In this document: positions 2,925 to 31,477 of the stretch, piece by piece
Position numbering within the stretch: position 1 is the stretch's first letter
Layout of the letters: each line of letters starts with the position of its first letter
Source: Acidobacteriota bacterium
Lineage (GTDB): Bacteria; Acidobacteriota; Terriglobia; Terriglobales; SCQP01
Assembly: GCA_021789895.1 (NCBI GenBank)
Contig: JAJYIU010000029.1
Location: forward strand, 1 to 42,753
Direction of reading: 5' to 3'
DNA: 42,753 nt
Program-made: the position numbers and the translations under genes
The notes under the pieces: model-generated
What the model saw: only the letters and a program-made list of their open reading frames with translations
The model's database searches: none
What the model was told of the DNA's origin: nothing

Positions 2925-4196
2925 ATGCCTCGTCCCCGCCTGGTTGATCTCCATGAGGGCCCGCAGGTCGGTTGGCTGTTTCTCGATCTGAACGCCTACT
3001 TTGCCTCGGTCGAGCAGCAGGACCGCCCCGAGTTGCGCGGCCGCCCGATTGCCGTAGTGCCGATGATCACGGAAAACACGGTTTGCATCGCCGCCAGCTA
3101 TGAGGCCAAGCGCTTCGGCATCAAGACCGGCACCAGGCTGGCCGACGCGCAGGCGATGTGCCCCGGACTGGAGCTGGTGGCGGCCCGGCCCCGGCTTTAC
3201 GTCGAGTATCACCATGCAATCGTGGCCGCGGTGGACCGCTGCCTGCCGATCAGCGCGGTGCTGTCGGTGGACGAGATGGCCTGCGAGCTGACCGGCCGCG
3301 AGCAGGCGCTCTCGAATGCGCTGCGGCTGGCGGCAGCGCTCAAGCAGGAATTGCGCGGGGTGGGCGACACGCTGCGCTGCTCGATCGGGCTGGCGCCCAA
3401 CCGCTTTCTGGCCAAGGTGGCTTCGGATATGGAAAAACCCGACGGGCTGGTCTTCCTGTTGAAGGGCGATCTGCCGCAGGCGCTGTTCCGGCTGGCGCCG
3501 GGCGATCTGCCGGGAATCGGAACGCGGATGCAGGCGCGGCTGGAGCTGGCGGGAATCCGGACCATGCGCCAGTTGGCCGCGCTCTCGCCGGCGCGCATGC
3601 GCGCGCTGTGGGGCAGTGTGGTGGGCGAGCGCATGTGGCACTGGATTCGCGGCGCCGATTTTCACGACCCGCCACCGCCGCGGCGCAGCCTGGGGCGGCA
3701 GCACGTGCTGGCGCCGGAATTTCGCAGCCGCGAGGCGGCGCTGGAGGTGGGTTTGAAGCTGCTGCATCTGGCCGCGACCGAGCTGCGCAAGCTGGAGTTG
3801 TGGGCGGGCGGACTGGGCGTGCAGGTGGATTTCATGCGCTTTGCCGGCCAGCCCCAGCCGGGCGACCCCTATTGGGAGGCCCATACGCGCATTGCCGAAT
3901 GCCGCGACGATTTTCTGCTGCAGCGTTATGTGCGGCGCCTGTGGCGCGGCTGCCCGCCGGCGAAGCCGATTTCGGTCGGGGTCTGGCTTTACGACCTCGC
4001 CCGGGAGCGGCAGCGCACGCTGCCGCTCTTCGATGCCGCCGAGCAGCAGCGGCGCGAACTGGCCAGCGACGCCATGGATGCGCTCAACCTCAAATTCGGC
4101 CCGCAGACGGTTTATCCGGGCGGGCTGCAGGGGGTGCGCGCCGCCGCCCCGACCCGTATCTCCTTCAGCAGCATCCCGGGATTGGAGCGATTTTAA
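2925..4196 (+). CDS. Y-family DNA polymerase (DinB/ImuB-related)
   Basis: The 423-residue protein has the Y-family palm signatures. The first metal-binding strand is LFLDLNAYFASVEQQ with Asp21, and the second catalytic pair is SVDEM with Asp116-Glu117. The fingers motif IAASYEAKRFGIKTGT follows at about 55-70. A helix-hairpin-helix thumb (PGIGTRMQARLELAGI) and a little-finger region complete it. Such enzymes copy damaged templates with low fidelity. The palm reads DLN rather than the DMD of canonical Pol IV, and I see no clear clamp-binding tail, so I leave the symbol blank. The next gene, 51 bases on, encodes an abasic-site crosslinking protein, pointing to a small damage-tolerance unit. Confidence 0.85.
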   Translation: MPRPRLVDLHEGPQVGWLFLDLNAYFASVEQQDRPELRGRPIAVVPMITENTVCIAASYEAKRFGIKTGTRLADAQAMCPGLELVAARPRLYVEYHHAIVAAVDRCLPISAVLSVDEMACELTGREQALSNALRLAAALKQELRGVGDTLRCSIGLAPNRFLAKVASDMEKPDGLVFLLKGDLPQALFRLAPGDLPGIGTRMQARLELAGIRTMRQLAALSPARMRALWGSVVGERMWHWIRGADFHDPPPPRRSLGRQHVLAPEFRSREAALEVGLKLLHLAATELRKLELWAGGLGVQVDFMRFAGQPQPGDPYWEAHTRIAECRDDFLLQRYVRRLWRGCPPAKPISVGVWLYDLARERQRTLPLFDAAEQQRRELASDAMDALNLKFGPQTVYPGGLQGVRAAAPTRISFSSIPGLERF

Positions 4197-27203: not shown

Positions 27204-27232
27204 TTGCCGCTCGATGGGCGCAGTGCCATACT
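27204..27232 (+). promoter_or_regulatory. Candidate promoter of the M28 peptidase gene
   Basis: TTGCCG (27204-27209) and CATACT (27227-27232) have 17-base spacing. An A-rich tract (27190-27200) just upstream could act as an UP element. The start would lie near 27239, about 29 bases before the gene, leaving room for its GGGAGGA ribosome binding site. A hairpin GAGGCC/GGCCTC lies at 27171-27189. Confidence 0.42.
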
Positions 27233-27267
27233 CCCGCCTTGCAGCCGATACGGCCGCGGGAGGATCT

Positions 27268-29439
27268 ATGAAGCTACGCGCGCGCAGCCTGTTTCCGCTT
27301 CTCTTCGCCTGGACCTTGCTGGCGGCGCCCCCGGCGGCGCGCCAGCCCCGGCCCAATACCGGGCTGCGCGGATTTTCCGCGGTTGCCGGCCATCGCGAGC
27401 GGATCTGGGAACAGCGCTTTCAAAGCCTGCCGCAGGCGGCCCGGATACGCGCCGCCATGCAGCACCTGAGCGCCTATCCGCACCAGCTCGGCTCGCCCTA
27501 CGACCACCAGAACGCGCTCTGGATTCTCCGCCGGTTCCGGCAATACGGCCTCGATGCGCATATTGAAAAATTCGAGGTGCTCTTCCCCACGCCCGCGCAG
27601 CGGCTGGTCGAAATGGTCGCGCCCGCCGTCTACAAGGCCAAATTAAAGGAGCCGGCCGTCGCCGGCGACGCGACCTCGGGACAATCCGGCCAGTTGCCCA
27701 CCTACAACGCCTATTCCGGCGACGGCGACGTCACCGCGCCGCTGGTGTACGTCAACTACGGCGTCCCCGCCGATTACCGCGAACTGGCCCGGCTCGGCAT
27801 CAGCGTGCGGGGCAAGATCGTGATCGCCCGCTACGGGCACAGTTGGCGCGGCATCAAACCCAAGCTCGCGCACCAGCACGGGGCGGTGGGCTGCATCATC
27901 TATTCCGACCCGCGCGACGACGGCTATTTTCAGGGCGACGTCTTTCCCAAGGGCCCCATGCGTCCCTGGCAGGGTGTACAGCGCGGCAGCGTGATGGAAA
28001 TGGAGCAGTACCCCGGCGATCCATCCACCCCCGGCTGGGGCTCGACACCGGGAGCGAAGCATCTGCCGCTCAACCAGATCAAGAATCTGGAAAAAATCCC
28101 GGTGCTGCCCATTTCCTACGGCGACGCGCTGCCGCTGTTGCGCCGGCTCGGCGGGCCGGTGGCGCCGGTCGCCTGGCGCGGGGCGCTGCCCATCACCTAT
28201 CATGTCGGCCCCGGGCCGGCGCGGGTGCACCTGATCGTCCGCCAGCATTGGTCGTTGGTCCCGCTTTATGACGTCATCGCCAAAATCCCCGGCCATGTCT
28301 GGCCCGATCAGTGGGTGATCCGCGGCAATCATTTCGACGCCTGGGTCAACGGCGCCGCCGACCCGCTCAGCGGCCAGTCGCCGCTGCTGGCCGAAGCCAA
28401 AGCCTTGGGAGCATTGCTGCGCCTGGGCTGGCGCCCGCGCCGCACCATTATTTATTGCGCCTGGGATGGCGAAGAGCCCGGCCTGCTGGGCTCAACCGAG
28501 TGGGTGGAAACCCACGCCGCCGCGCTCGAGCGGCACGCGGTGGCTTACATCAACTCCGATACCAGCATGCGCGGCGTGCTCGAAATTTCCGGCAGCCATT
28601 CGCTGGAACGCTTCAGCAACCAACTGGCCGAGGCGGTGCTCGATCCGCACAGCCGTTTCACCCTCTGGCAGGAGATGGCCATGCGGCGCGCCAAAGCGCT
28701 GAAGAAGCCTCCCCATCATGCCGCTCCGCTCGACGGCCGCGATCTGCATATTTCCGCGCTCGGCTCCGGCTCCGATTATTCGCCTTTCCTGCAGCATCTC
28801 GGCATTCCGGCGCTCGACTTCGGATTTTCCGATCACCAACCCTTCGGCCAATACCATTCCGTCTATGACGATTTCTATTGGTACACGCACTTCGGCGATC
28901 CCGGCTTCCGCTATGAGGTCGCGCTGGCGCAGGTGATCGGCGCCGGGGTGATGCGGCTGGCCGATGCCCAGGTGCTGCCGTTCGAGTTCGGCGATCTCGC
29001 CGGCACGGTCGCGCGCTACGGACGGCAGTTGCACGCGCTGGCGAAAAAGCAGGGACGGCCGAAATTCGAATTTGGCCCGCTCGACGCCGCCTTAGCGCGG
29101 CTGCATCGCGCCGCGGCGGGCTATGACGCAGCTTACCGCCGGGCCGCGGCCGGCGGGCTGTTCAAGCGGAGCCCGTCTGCGCTCGGCCAGCTGAATGCCG
29201 GGCTGATGCAATGCAGCCGGGCGCTGCTCGATCCGGCGGGGCTGCCGCGCCGCTCCTGGTACAAGCACACGCTCTACGCTCCCGGCTACTACACCGGCTA
29301 CGGGGTAAAAACCATGCCCGGAATTCGGGAAGCGCTGGAGCGGAAAGACTTCCGCGAAGCCGCGGCGCAGGAGCGGCAGGTGGCGGCGGCGCTGAACCGG
29401 CTGTCGAAAAAGCTGGAGCGCCTGCGGCGCGAGTTGTAA
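27268..29439 (+). CDS. Secreted M28-family metallopeptidase (glutamate carboxypeptidase II-like)
   Basis: The 723-residue protein has a signal peptide (about 1-26), a PA domain inserted around residues 130-260, and an M28 catalytic domain. Zinc-ligand and catalytic motifs match human GCPII in order: GNHFDAW with His355 and bridging Asp365, WDGEEPG with Glu402 and Glu403, INSDTS with Asp431, and YHSVYDD with His530. A C-terminal dimerisation-like domain follows. It should cleave peptides in the periplasm or outside; actual substrate preference is unknown. The ATG at 27268 follows GGGAGGA. Confidence 0.92.
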   Translation: MKLRARSLFPLLFAWTLLAAPPAARQPRPNTGLRGFSAVAGHRERIWEQRFQSLPQAARIRAAMQHLSAYPHQLGSPYDHQNALWILRRFRQYGLDAHIEKFEVLFPTPAQRLVEMVAPAVYKAKLKEPAVAGDATSGQSGQLPTYNAYSGDGDVTAPLVYVNYGVPADYRELARLGISVRGKIVIARYGHSWRGIKPKLAHQHGAVGCIIYSDPRDDGYFQGDVFPKGPMRPWQGVQRGSVMEMEQYPGDPSTPGWGSTPGAKHLPLNQIKNLEKIPVLPISYGDALPLLRRLGGPVAPVAWRGALPITYHVGPGPARVHLIVRQHWSLVPLYDVIAKIPGHVWPDQWVIRGNHFDAWVNGAADPLSGQSPLLAEAKALGALLRLGWRPRRTIIYCAWDGEEPGLLGSTEWVETHAAALERHAVAYINSDTSMRGVLEISGSHSLERFSNQLAEAVLDPHSRFTLWQEMAMRRAKALKKPPHHAAPLDGRDLHISALGSGSDYSPFLQHLGIPALDFGFSDHQPFGQYHSVYDDFYWYTHFGDPGFRYEVALAQVIGAGVMRLADAQVLPFEFGDLAGTVARYGRQLHALAKKQGRPKFEFGPLDAALARLHRAAAGYDAAYRRAAAGGLFKRSPSALGQLNAGLMQCSRALLDPAGLPRRSWYKHTLYAPGYYTGYGVKTMPGIREALERKDFREAAAQERQVAAALNRLSKKLERLRREL

Positions 29440-29803
29440 TCCGCCACTGCCGATACAGTCTCGCCCCGGCCGGCCGGAAACGCCATCGCAAAAGAGACAC
29501 GTGTACACATTGCTTTCATGGCGTAAGTCCATTGAATGGATGGAGATAAGCCGCGCGGAGAAGCAAAAAAGAGACAAAATGAGACCATTGAAAACATCCC
29601 TCTATAATATTTTTTGCAAAACGGCACCCGAGGGCGAAAAATAGACTTAAACCATCTAGATTCAGCAATATATCTCGGTGCCGTTTTCGATTTTGAAACG
29701 GCACTGAAACGGCACCAAACGGCACTGGGTAATTGGACGCATTTCGGGGCCGGGTGCGAGTGGGAAGGCCGGAGTTCCTGCCGCCAGCCCGCTTCCTCCC
29801 GGA
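29440..29803. other. AT-richer intergenic island with repeats, no supported gene
   Basis: The gap between the M28 gene and the convergent tolC-like gene falls clearly below the local G+C content from about 29490 to 29735. It contains a palindrome GTGTACAC at 29501-29508, a TATAAT at 29603-29608, a T-run at 29610-29615, and five copies of AAACGGCAC or its complement (29619-29725). Short frames across it have no recognisable product. It may be a regulatory site or a remnant of an inserted element. Confidence 0.5.
29619..29725. repeat. Five copies of the 9-base motif AAACGGCAC
   Basis: Direct copies lie at 29619-29627, 29696-29704, 29707-29715 and 29717-29725; an inverted copy (GTGCCGTTT) lies at 29678-29686. 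The last three are spaced 11 and 10 bases, about one helical turn. Such phasing suits cooperative protein binding, but no known site family was recognised. Confidence 0.7.
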
Positions 29804-31477
29804 TCAGGGCCCCAGCAGAGGGGAGACGTGCAGGTGCAGGGAGGAGAGCAGGGTCCAATCGGCGCGGCGGTAGCGCACCGCCGCCACCTGCCAGGCGATT
29901 TCCGCCTGCAGCAGAGCGGTTTCGGCGTCGCTCAACTGCGACTGCTGCTGCAAATACTCAAACAGGGTGGTGGTGCCGAGCAGGTATTTCTGGTGGGCGG
30001 CATCCACGTTCTTGCGGGTCAGGTCGAGCGCCACGCGCGCGGCCTGGATTTCCTCGTCGGCCATGCGCAGCTCGGTATCGGCCTGGCGCACCGATTGCGT
30101 CACCGACTGCTGCTGGTCGCGCAACTGCGCCCGGTCGCGGCTGTGCTGAATGTAGGAGTTGGCGAGCGAGGCGGCGGCGGCGCTGTTGCGGAAGGGCAGA
30201 TTGAGCTGCAGCGAAAAGCCGTAAAAGGGTGCGTGAAAGCGGAAAAGCTGGCCGAGGGAATCGCTCAGCCCGCCCGGCTGGAGCGTGCCGCCGGCGCCCA
30301 GCAGCGAGCTGGCGGGAATCTGGTCGCCGCCCAGGCCGCTGGAACCGTAGAGGCCGCTGAGGTCGAGTTCGGGGCGCAGGCGGTTGCGGGCGGCGGTTTC
30401 GCTGAGATCGTCGAGCAGCAGTTGACGGCGGGCGGCGAGCAGCTCGGGGCGGCGACCGAGCGCGGCGGCGAGCGCCTGGCTGAGCGGCAGGCGCGGCGAG
30501 GCGCCGGGCTGCGGCTCGGGCGCGTCTTCCAGGGTGATGGGCAGGTTGCGCAGCTTCGGATTGAGATCGGCGCCGATGAAGCGCCGCAGGCTGTCGAGCG
30601 ATTCCTCATACGCGGCCTGGGCCTGCAGCAGGGCCAGCTTGGTGCGCGCCACCTGGGCCTGCGACTGGTAAATATCCATCGGCGCCAGCGCGCCCAGCTT
30701 CAGCGCCCGCTGGTCGTGGTGGTAAGAGCGCTGCGCCAGCGCCAGCGCCGACTGCTGCACCTGGATCGCCTGGCGCGCGCCGGATGCGTTCCAATAGGCC
30801 TCGGCGGCGCTGACCAGCAGGTCGGCGATCTGCACCCGGCTCTGGTCGCTGGCCACCAGCACGCCGCCCTGCGCCTGCCGCAGCGGCTCCTTCAGCAGCA
30901 GATTGCCGCGATTGCGCAGCAGCGGCTCAGTGATCGAGAGCGTCAGGCCGGTGGCGATGGAGGGGTTGAAGAGATTGAACTGGCTGTTGGTGGAATAACG
31001 GTTGCTGGTGAAACCGGCGGTGATGTTCTGGCCGGTGGGCAGCGCCTGTGTGAAATTGATGCTGGAAGACTGTCCCAGGCTGTTGAGGGTGGAAGCGCCG
31101 CCGAGCTGTGTGTATTGCGGCTCCAGCTTGCGCTGGCTGTTGAAGGCCAGGCTGAGCTGGGGATCGAAGGGAGCGCGGGCGGAGAGCACCTGCGCCGCCG
31201 CCGAACTGACTTGCAGCCGGTCGAGATGAATCTGGGGGTCGTTGCGCAGCACCAGCAGCAGGAATTGCCGCAGGCTGAGCTCCAGTCCGTGCTTGCCTAC
31301 GCGCCGGCTGAGCCCGGCTATGGGACTCAGGCGCAGCGGCGGCAACTGAAAATGCCGCGCGAGATAGTTGGGCAGCGCCTGGCCGGCCGCGGGCAGGCTC
31401 AAAGCCAGAGCCGCCGCGAGCGCCAGCCAGCCGCGATGGCGTTTCCGGCTTCCAATTTTCTCCAATTTCAGGTTCAC
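29804..31477 (-). CDS. TolC-family outer-membrane efflux protein
   Basis: The 557-residue protein has a signal peptide (about 1-34) and two OEP (TolC) repeats. It shows long Ala/Gln-rich helices, LSLRQFLLLVLRNDPQIHLDR near the start, repeated QAQAAYEESLDSLRR-like helices, and a C-terminal QQSQLSDAETALLQAEIAW. It forms the outer-membrane channel for the upstream exporter. The start is a GTG at 31477 with AAGGAA 7-8 bases upstream. It is the last gene of the operon, 65 bases after the permease. Confidence 0.9.
   Translation of the reverse strand: MNLKLEKIGSRKRHRGWLALAAALALSLPAAGQALPNYLARHFQLPPLRLSPIAGLSRRVGKHGLELSLRQFLLLVLRNDPQIHLDRLQVSSAAAQVLSARAPFDPQLSLAFNSQRKLEPQYTQLGGASTLNSLGQSSSINFTQALPTGQNITAGFTSNRYSTNSQFNLFNPSIATGLTLSITEPLLRNRGNLLLKEPLRQAQGGVLVASDQSRVQIADLLVSAAEAYWNASGARQAIQVQQSALALAQRSYHHDQRALKLGALAPMDIYQSQAQVARTKLALLQAQAAYEESLDSLRRFIGADLNPKLRNLPITLEDAPEPQPGASPRLPLSQALAAALGRRPELLAARRQLLLDDLSETAARNRLRPELDLSGLYGSSGLGGDQIPASSLLGAGGTLQPGGLSDSLGQLFRFHAPFYGFSLQLNLPFRNSAAAASLANSYIQHSRDRAQLRDQQQSVTQSVRQADTELRMADEEIQAARVALDLTRKNVDAAHQKYLLGTTTLFEYLQQQSQLSDAETALLQAEIAWQVAAVRYRRADWTLLSSLHLHVSPLLGP

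Follow-up and report, generated by a model that had tools for sequence, protein, structure and literature searches.

Among described systems, the replication origins of SaPI/PICI elements come closest to the locus reported here. As set out in excerpts of PMC7581432 and PMC6092414, they lie directly 3' of rep, consist of two iteron sets flanking an AT-rich region, and are recognised by a C-terminal domain. In SCCmec, the isolated C-terminal domain of Cch2 binds a repeat region just downstream of its own gene; the excerpts of PMC7581432 that describe this mention no dispersed gene-less copies, in which respect SCCmec differs from what we describe below.

In this study, we analysed a 42,753-nucleotide stretch of an Acidobacteriota genome (the window), in which a 364-bp gap separates the stop codons of two converging genes (Table 1). 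At roughly three chances in four, we consider this gap to be a solo, gene-less replication origin of the SaPI/PICI type, the initiator of which is encoded elsewhere in the chromosome, on contig C77. Like the SaPI/PICI rep-ori modules, as far as those excerpts describe them, it has two iteron sets around an AT-rich segment and a candidate partner of the SF3-type initiator helicases, whose C-terminal domain would be expected to choose the origin, different initiators going with different iterons. The placement of iterons directly 3' of the initiator gene is shared by the C77 copy only. In contrast to the modules in those excerpts, the window copy and 15 others have no adjoining rep (no helicase coding sequence within up to 2.5 kb), many solo origins occur in one genome, and the iterons are 9-11 bp long and partly inverted. 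The locus is also unlike a whole PICI: its flanks are a peptidase and an efflux gene, no int, xis, pri or interference genes are present, and no rep, primase or integrase was found beside the window copy. We think that the window element would work like a SaPI/PICI origin, yet it is no PICI and has no rep beside it.

SaPI/PICI-type origins are known as parts of satellites, and here they would be free, gene-less chromosomal repeats of more than one iteron type per genome. The copies suggest that such origins can multiply within a chromosome without a gene serving them. If they are active, they would provide a helicase of foreign type with numerous additional start sites, or decoys, in the chromosome. 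A search of open-licence PMC articles on acidobacterial repeats with initiators, SF3 helicases with dispersed origins, PICIs in acidobacteria, MITEs with iterons, orphan or solitary origins and iteron decoys turned up no account of elements of this kind, the last two topics being judged by the titles listed.

The window element and its family

The preliminary description, made from the letters of the window, had reported an AT-rich island with phased repeats between converging genes. The low G+C is borne out by values of 0.38-0.53 in 100-bp intervals starting at 29450-29650, against 0.53-0.80 in the remaining intervals of 28500-30999, and the peptidase gene and the OEP efflux gene do face the gap with their stop codons. 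Exact AAACGGCAC occurs five times in the window, all within 107 bp, as four direct copies, spaced by 77, 11 and 10 bp, and one inverted copy. The phased 11- and 10-base spacings noticed earlier are thus present, while the inverted copy, which had been counted in addition to five, is one of the five, and there is no sixth. Six inexact matches lie elsewhere in the window, and the total of 11 with one mismatch allowed is no excess for the whole window, as 34 of 100 shuffles reach it. The TATAAT (29603-29608) and the palindrome GTGTACAC (29501-29508) are where they had been seen; because both are confined to the window copy and its duplicate on contig C70 among the 17 copies described below, they stand outside the element's signature.

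Table 1. Features of the gap and its flanks, numbered from the first nucleotide of the window
Feature	Position	Strand	Remark
Peptidase gene (TFR_dimer, Peptidase_M28 and PA domains)	27214..29439	+	Flanking gene, outside the element
Gap	29440..29803		Between the two stop codons
Unit common with the copy on contig C70	29466..29800	+	Limits from alignment, +/- few bases
Solo origin-like element	29490..29727	+	Core common to 15 other full-length copies and 1 truncated copy in the genome
5' edge motif AAAnGAGACAC	29490..29500	+	
Weakly conserved module	29523..29549	+	Consensus like ATAAGTCTATnnnGCAnTGnAGATA
Second AAAAGAGACA box	29567..29576	+	AAAGAGACA here in 13/17 copies
T-tract directly 5' of the first iteron	29610..29615	+	At least 5 T in 17/17 copies
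Left iteron AAACGGCAC	29619..29627	+	
AT-rich spacer	29628..29677	+	Presumed melting region
Inverted iteron	29678..29686	-	
Right iteron 1	29696..29704	+	
Right iteron 2	29707..29715	+	
Right iteron 3	29717..29725	+	
Outer membrane efflux protein gene (OEP type)	29804..31477	-	Flanking gene, outside the element

BLAST and an element sequence model (R1, built from 16 copies) recovered 17 elements of up to ~245 bp in the own genome (G000), 16 full copies and one truncated (C29), with their parts in a common order; R1 gave 17 strong and four weaker partial matches (C47, C28, C46 and C7; E 7.5e-9 to 9e-4). The array opens with one iteron; an AT-rich spacer of ~50 bp leads to an inverted iteron 59 bp from the first, and past a short AT-rich loop the element closes with two to four direct iterons. 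The inverted iteron stands at +59 in 15 of 17 copies and at +60 in C26, and has one mismatch in C62b; successive direct iterons are spaced by 11 bp in 17 of 25 cases and by 10, 12 or 20 bp in the rest. At the other end, the edge is sharp: in 14 copies, the three A before and the AC after GAGAC agree in 93%, with at most 50% agreement outside, the full agreement within GAGAC being due to the alignment on that motif. On two tentative suggestions of the preliminary description, an element remnant and a site for an unknown DNA-binding protein, it came close. The array belongs to a dispersed element of 17 copies, and the likely binder, judged from the sequences, would be the SF3-like helicase encoded on C77.

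The iterons are conserved to a degree that the rest of the element is not. The 9-mer matches exactly at 75 of the 76 positions scored, in a count that would have passed over copies with two or more mismatches, and the spacers (~50 bp, mean G+C 0.42) have a mean pairwise identity of 56% among 15 non-redundant copies. Such a contrast seems hard to get by neutral decay of dead repeats, with the proviso that badly damaged copies are harder to detect. It bears on two alternatives. The arrays may be what is left of plasmids or satellites that integrated independently and lost their genes, a rather improbable origin in our estimate, since decay should cost iterons as fast as spacers. They may also be host-adapted sites, kept by host selection, that titrate or handcuff the initiator or block plasmids and satellites with the same iteron; this is the main rival, which we judge unlikely on balance, and the far better preservation of iterons than of spacers is in its favour. 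Iteron plasmids are controlled by iteron dosage, which also counts for host-adapted sites, as does the position of the copies in intergenic, often convergent gaps. Within the spacers, the positions TAA, TC[AT] and TTA are largely kept in 29 aligned sequences of several iteron types, of which 12 of other types were hand-picked and trimmed and those behind G000_C40, G001_C45 and G004_C116 were left out.

Among the genomes compared, the array is specific to this one. The pattern GGTGCCGTTTN{0,30}AAACGGCACC has 19 matches per strand in G000 (overlaps counted, 13 elements), none for the reversed control and none in 40 relatives, in which BLAST with the window element likewise found no match. Taken singly, AAACGGCAC has 60 + 59 matches in the own genome, and its reversed control is also common (30 + 20), so isolated copies outside arrays are mostly background. 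A search of genome and relatives for the motif, as the preliminary description had recommended, thus yields 17 copies at home and none in 40 relatives, of which three have the layout with other motifs; its proposal to count missing conservation in close relatives against the repeats would have misled, as the motif is absent there and the layout is kept.

Clear placement between converging genes applies to six of the 17 copies, the others being co-directional, divergent or unclear by coding scores. A crude ORF list had suggested mostly converging genes, and the idea of a convergent-gene terminator was dropped once coding scores gave only six. On contig C62 (~2990-3540), two copies stand in tandem, 310 bp apart.

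A small RNA gene, which had been suggested at first, or a transcription-regulatory site is very unlikely to account for the gap. The TATAAT at 29603, the hairpin-forming arms and folding slightly better than shuffles on either strand (z -1.66 and -2.14) would fit such a gene, but no Rfam match was found in 29000-30200 up to E 1, and the consensus fold of 16 copies, the outcome of the folding that had been advised, contains nothing but the iteron arms and one hairpin of 3 bp, and there is almost no covariation (covariation term 0.08). Moreover, 15 of the 17 copies lack the TATAAT, and the orientation of genes around the copies is inconsistent.

The candidate initiator helicase

The copy on contig C77 starts at the stop codon of a gene for a 629-aa ATPase (53966-55849), and the link between element and gene recurs in relatives: the gene ahead of the element on G004:C72 and G008:C85 is homologous to the one that, in the own genome, precedes the C77 copy. 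The AlphaFold model of the protein (pLDDT 76, pTM 0.72) has the SaPI5 primase-helicase as its top structural match (Foldseek E 1.1e-7; Z 16.3, rmsd 5.6, 373 aligned), tied within one Z unit with the mpox (poxvirus) E5 protein (Z 15.6); other D5/E5 chains, ASFV PrimPol, MCM and, as a likeness to the SCCmec system, Cch (5dgk, Z 13.4) come next. The model thus indicates an SF3-like (D5-like) helicase. This assignment comes from the fold search, as Pfam, NCBIfam, PADLOC, PHROGs and a sequence search of solved structures gave only weak P-loop-type matches. In the model, the last 60 residues comprise helices plus a wing of two strands, which we take for a winged helix.

This protein would be the cognate initiator, with the same iterons directly behind its gene. 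In the window, the left iteron stands against the inverted and three direct right iterons around the ~50-bp AT-rich segment. The C-terminal winged-helix-like domain would bind the phased iterons, the AT-rich segment would melt, and the helicase would load. The gene-less copies would be non-autonomous and would have retained the binding array.

Strong helicase matches are confined to G000, G001, G004 and G008 among 41 genomes, and of 14 genomes searched with the element model, these four are again the ones that match. Seven others of the 41 have P-loop matches of ~44 residues at E 1.5e-4 or weaker, and in a sample of 396 genomes of the phylum, 15 have a helicase match, the own genome included. 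At 23 loci (21 helicase genes and two solo elements), no neighbour family occurs at more than two, the largest shared set being that of the syntenic pair G000_C1/G001_C43. Five helicase-gene neighbours could be named (a methyltransferase, a Y1 transposase, a glycosyl hydrolase 116, a weak PIN match and an EngA-type GTPase), none of them an integrase or primase. The helicase gene on G000:C40 has the Y1_Tnp (IS200-like) transposase gene (L152:1061-1819) ~0.8 kb upstream.

Helicase homologues also occur on 28 plasmid records, with 26-30% identity among the 20 listed. On the Streptomyces plasmid NZ_CP109021.1 (H6, 22.8 kb), a homologous ATP-binding protein (30% identity over 61% of the query) adjoins a primase/polymerase gene and is followed on its 3' side by a dense GGTGACGCAG array, in which one 8-mer has 10 copies in 300 bp (0 of 300 shuffles have as many) and direct and inverted 10-mers stand partly in 11-bp steps. 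The sequence suggests that this array is the plasmid's origin. It resembles the acidobacterial case in the dense array 3' of a helicase homologue, and differs in being on a plasmid with a primase/polymerase gene. A Stanieria plasmid (L176:5190-5330) has three CGTCAG (GTCAG-type repeats) flanking an AT-rich stretch directly behind its homologue, an arrangement that looks like the acidobacterial elements but is not significant (0.15), and three other plasmid loci gave nothing above shuffles, making one significant array in five plasmid homologues. At the distant loci in the phylum, one of 14 readable ones has clear iteron-like repeats. Phage homologues are known from two records of Microbacterium phage Zeta1847, which, with an uncultured phage ATP-binding protein, is also the best match in the structure search of viral models. 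The scan of viral contigs found at least one relative, a distant one with 26% identity on L171 (IMG/VR).

The homologues on plasmids are what one would expect if the elements were leftovers of integrated replicons, as are two homologues in other genomes of the phylum (L208 and L220), which stand before sequences that we read by eye as excisionase- or integrase-like. However, two things speak against leftovers: the sharp 5' edge, which falls at the stop codon, and the surroundings of the 16 copies other than that on C77, in which up to 2.5 kb (less at contig ends) contain no helicase coding sequence at E 0.01.

Iteron types and C-terminal ends of the paralogues

The occurrence of an array behind the helicase gene is not peculiar to C77. 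We examined 18 helicase genes of the four genomes with a readable 3' end, from -30 to +270 bp around the stop codon and against 500 shuffles, excluding G001_C31, which has one internal stop, and G001_C9 and C23, whose 3' ends run off their contigs. A repeat array was found behind 12 of the 18 (P <=0.012), or 11 after discounting G004_C99, whose array is regarded as an unrelated repeat. The 8-mers are AAACGGCA (G000_C77) and GGTCATCT (G000_C40) in the own genome; GTGGCGGC (G001_C43), TAGTGACG (G001_C45), TACTTCCA (G001_C21), GTGACATC (G001_C7) and TGGTGACA (G001_C13) in G001; CCGGCACC (G008_C85) and GGCACCCG (G004_C72), which belong to a common CCCGGCACCCG iteron; and TCGTCATG (G004_C85) and CGCGTAGG (G004_C116) in G004. 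No significant array was present in the 300 bp tested behind G000_C1, G000_C7, G008_C76, G008_C19, G004_C137 and G004_C10, G000_C1 having only one 12-bp inverted pair.

Comparison of paralogues points to a joint change of C-terminal domain and iteron. G001_C21 and G001_C43 are 99.6% identical over 237 bp, beyond which their final 40 aa (17/40) and their iterons differ. In G001, C13 and C7 are identical in their first 127 bp and then diverge in the same way (18/40 of the last 40 aa). The DNA of the syntenic G000_C1 and G001_C43 is 78% alike until ~70 nt before the stop, after which the last 40 aa agree at 20/40 and the origins are unrelated. These three pairs are opposed by one counter-example, G008_C85/G004_C72, which have a common iteron though they agree at just 20/40 over the last 40 residues, perhaps as the coding end overlaps the origin there. 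The joint change, as it appears from the sequences, is therefore not a strict rule. In G001, the end of C9 (L159) and the starts of C13 (L161) and C7 (L162) connect one helicase body to two C-terminal ends and iterons through the identical 127-bp overlap, like a fork in an assembly graph, which may reflect either two separate loci or switching inside the population.

Several iteron types have solo copies of their own, and several match a resident helicase gene. The C1 type has two in G000, on C51 and C63. In G001, GGTGACAWY...RWTGTCACC has seven matches, of which two follow helicase genes and the other five (C17, C19, C24, C35 and C46) are on contigs in which no helicase match was found; G000 and G008 have none, G004 one and the reversed control none. 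G008 has three similar solo copies of the CCGGCACTG type (C262, C395 and C113), for which no helicase gene was found in that genome, which is 54% complete. In the R1 search, the same layout with other motifs was recovered from G001 (E 8e-7, 0.02 and 0.28), G008 and G004 (best E 0.001 and 0.008) and from none of 10 other genomes tested, some weak matches, e.g., G004:C125, being noise. The left iteron set, which is a single iteron in the window family, comprises two in several related elements. That several iteron types each have solo copies argues against sites kept by the host. On G000:C51 (~1740-2160), a C77-type and a C1-type solo element adjoin each other.

A wider generalisation is possible, and we put it forward tentatively. 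Stand-alone chromosomal SF3-like initiator helicases may exist as a class, the origins of which multiply alone as non-autonomous elements, with C-terminal domain and iteron switching together and with several such 'languages' in one genome. This would be a minimal selfish system without a counterpart in the papers searched. The natural swaps of C-terminal domain and iteron would be material for learning how initiators choose DNA.

A palindrome scan of public contigs for simple hairpin relatives gave 29 scattered loci. The three that were opened (L039, L052 and L053, labelled Terriglobales or Ca. Sulfotelmatobacter) differ from the element: their perfect hairpins, built around GGTGCCGTTTC or GGTGCCGTTTGG, are similar to the inverted iteron pair but come without a left iteron and spacer.

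Insertion sites and mode of spread

The site of the window element is empty in G001, a genome of the same genus, where the two stop codons are a few bases apart (three by count). We compared 15 sites with G001, all except C25 and that of the second C62 copy; both flanks could be aligned for 11 of them, and one side only for C29, C70, C51 and C77. At eight of the 11, the stretch between the flanks is at least 200 bp shorter in G001 (lengths in bp, G000/G001: C5a 328/20, C9 408/51, C78 439/210, C74 446/122, C40 597/85, C62 717/221, C26 863/87 and C13 1494/104), and at the C26 and C13 sites G001 also lacks a gene. Over a unit of ~335 bp, six differences set the near-identical window and C70 copies apart, and their flanks are unrelated; the sequences suggest a recent duplication, larger than the core, that carried some flanking DNA along.

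These observations point to spread rather than to fixed sites, which counts against the idea of arrays maintained by the host for titration. Spread by local replication and reinsertion is our first choice: as a by-product of initiator-driven local replication, the solo origins would be copied and then reinserted. Spread of solo origins by replication alone becomes directly testable.

Dispersal by an ordinary transposase (e.g., an IS200-like Y1), with the likeness to an origin as a by-product of capture, would make the elements MITE- or REP-like, which we consider quite unlikely. The elements do resemble MITEs and REP/BIMEs in being short, non-coding, dispersed, intergenic and present in many copies per genome; their core is palindromic, and the Y1 gene near the C40 helicase would supply a transposase. 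However, their anatomy is that of an origin, and no terminal inverted repeats were found, as the 5' end AAAnGAGACAC differs from the 3' end, which consists of iterons. The scarcity of shared neighbour families (at most two of 23 loci) does not favour transposition either, and the joint change of iteron and C-terminal domain would be left unexplained. No clear target-site duplication was seen in nine filled sites read by eye against G001, where the flanks have diverged. With neither terminal inverted repeats nor a clear target-site duplication to point to one mode of spread, local replication and reinsertion is the choice that we prefer.

Two sites are occupied in both genomes. In G001, the C8 and C5b sites each bear an element of another iteron type; the array at C5b is less regular and counts as an element by our interpretation. 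Instead of recent spread, these two sites could reflect insertions that are old and common to both genomes, with turnover of the iteron. At the C17 site, G001 has other repeats and no iteron element. Other interspersed repeats were also seen elsewhere in G001 (L182, L170, L160 and L080), e.g., GCAATTTCTCCGAAATTGCC...CCGACTCGGCCnTTAACGCTTA and GGCGCGGGACCTAATAGG..., some of them directly adjoining iteron elements.
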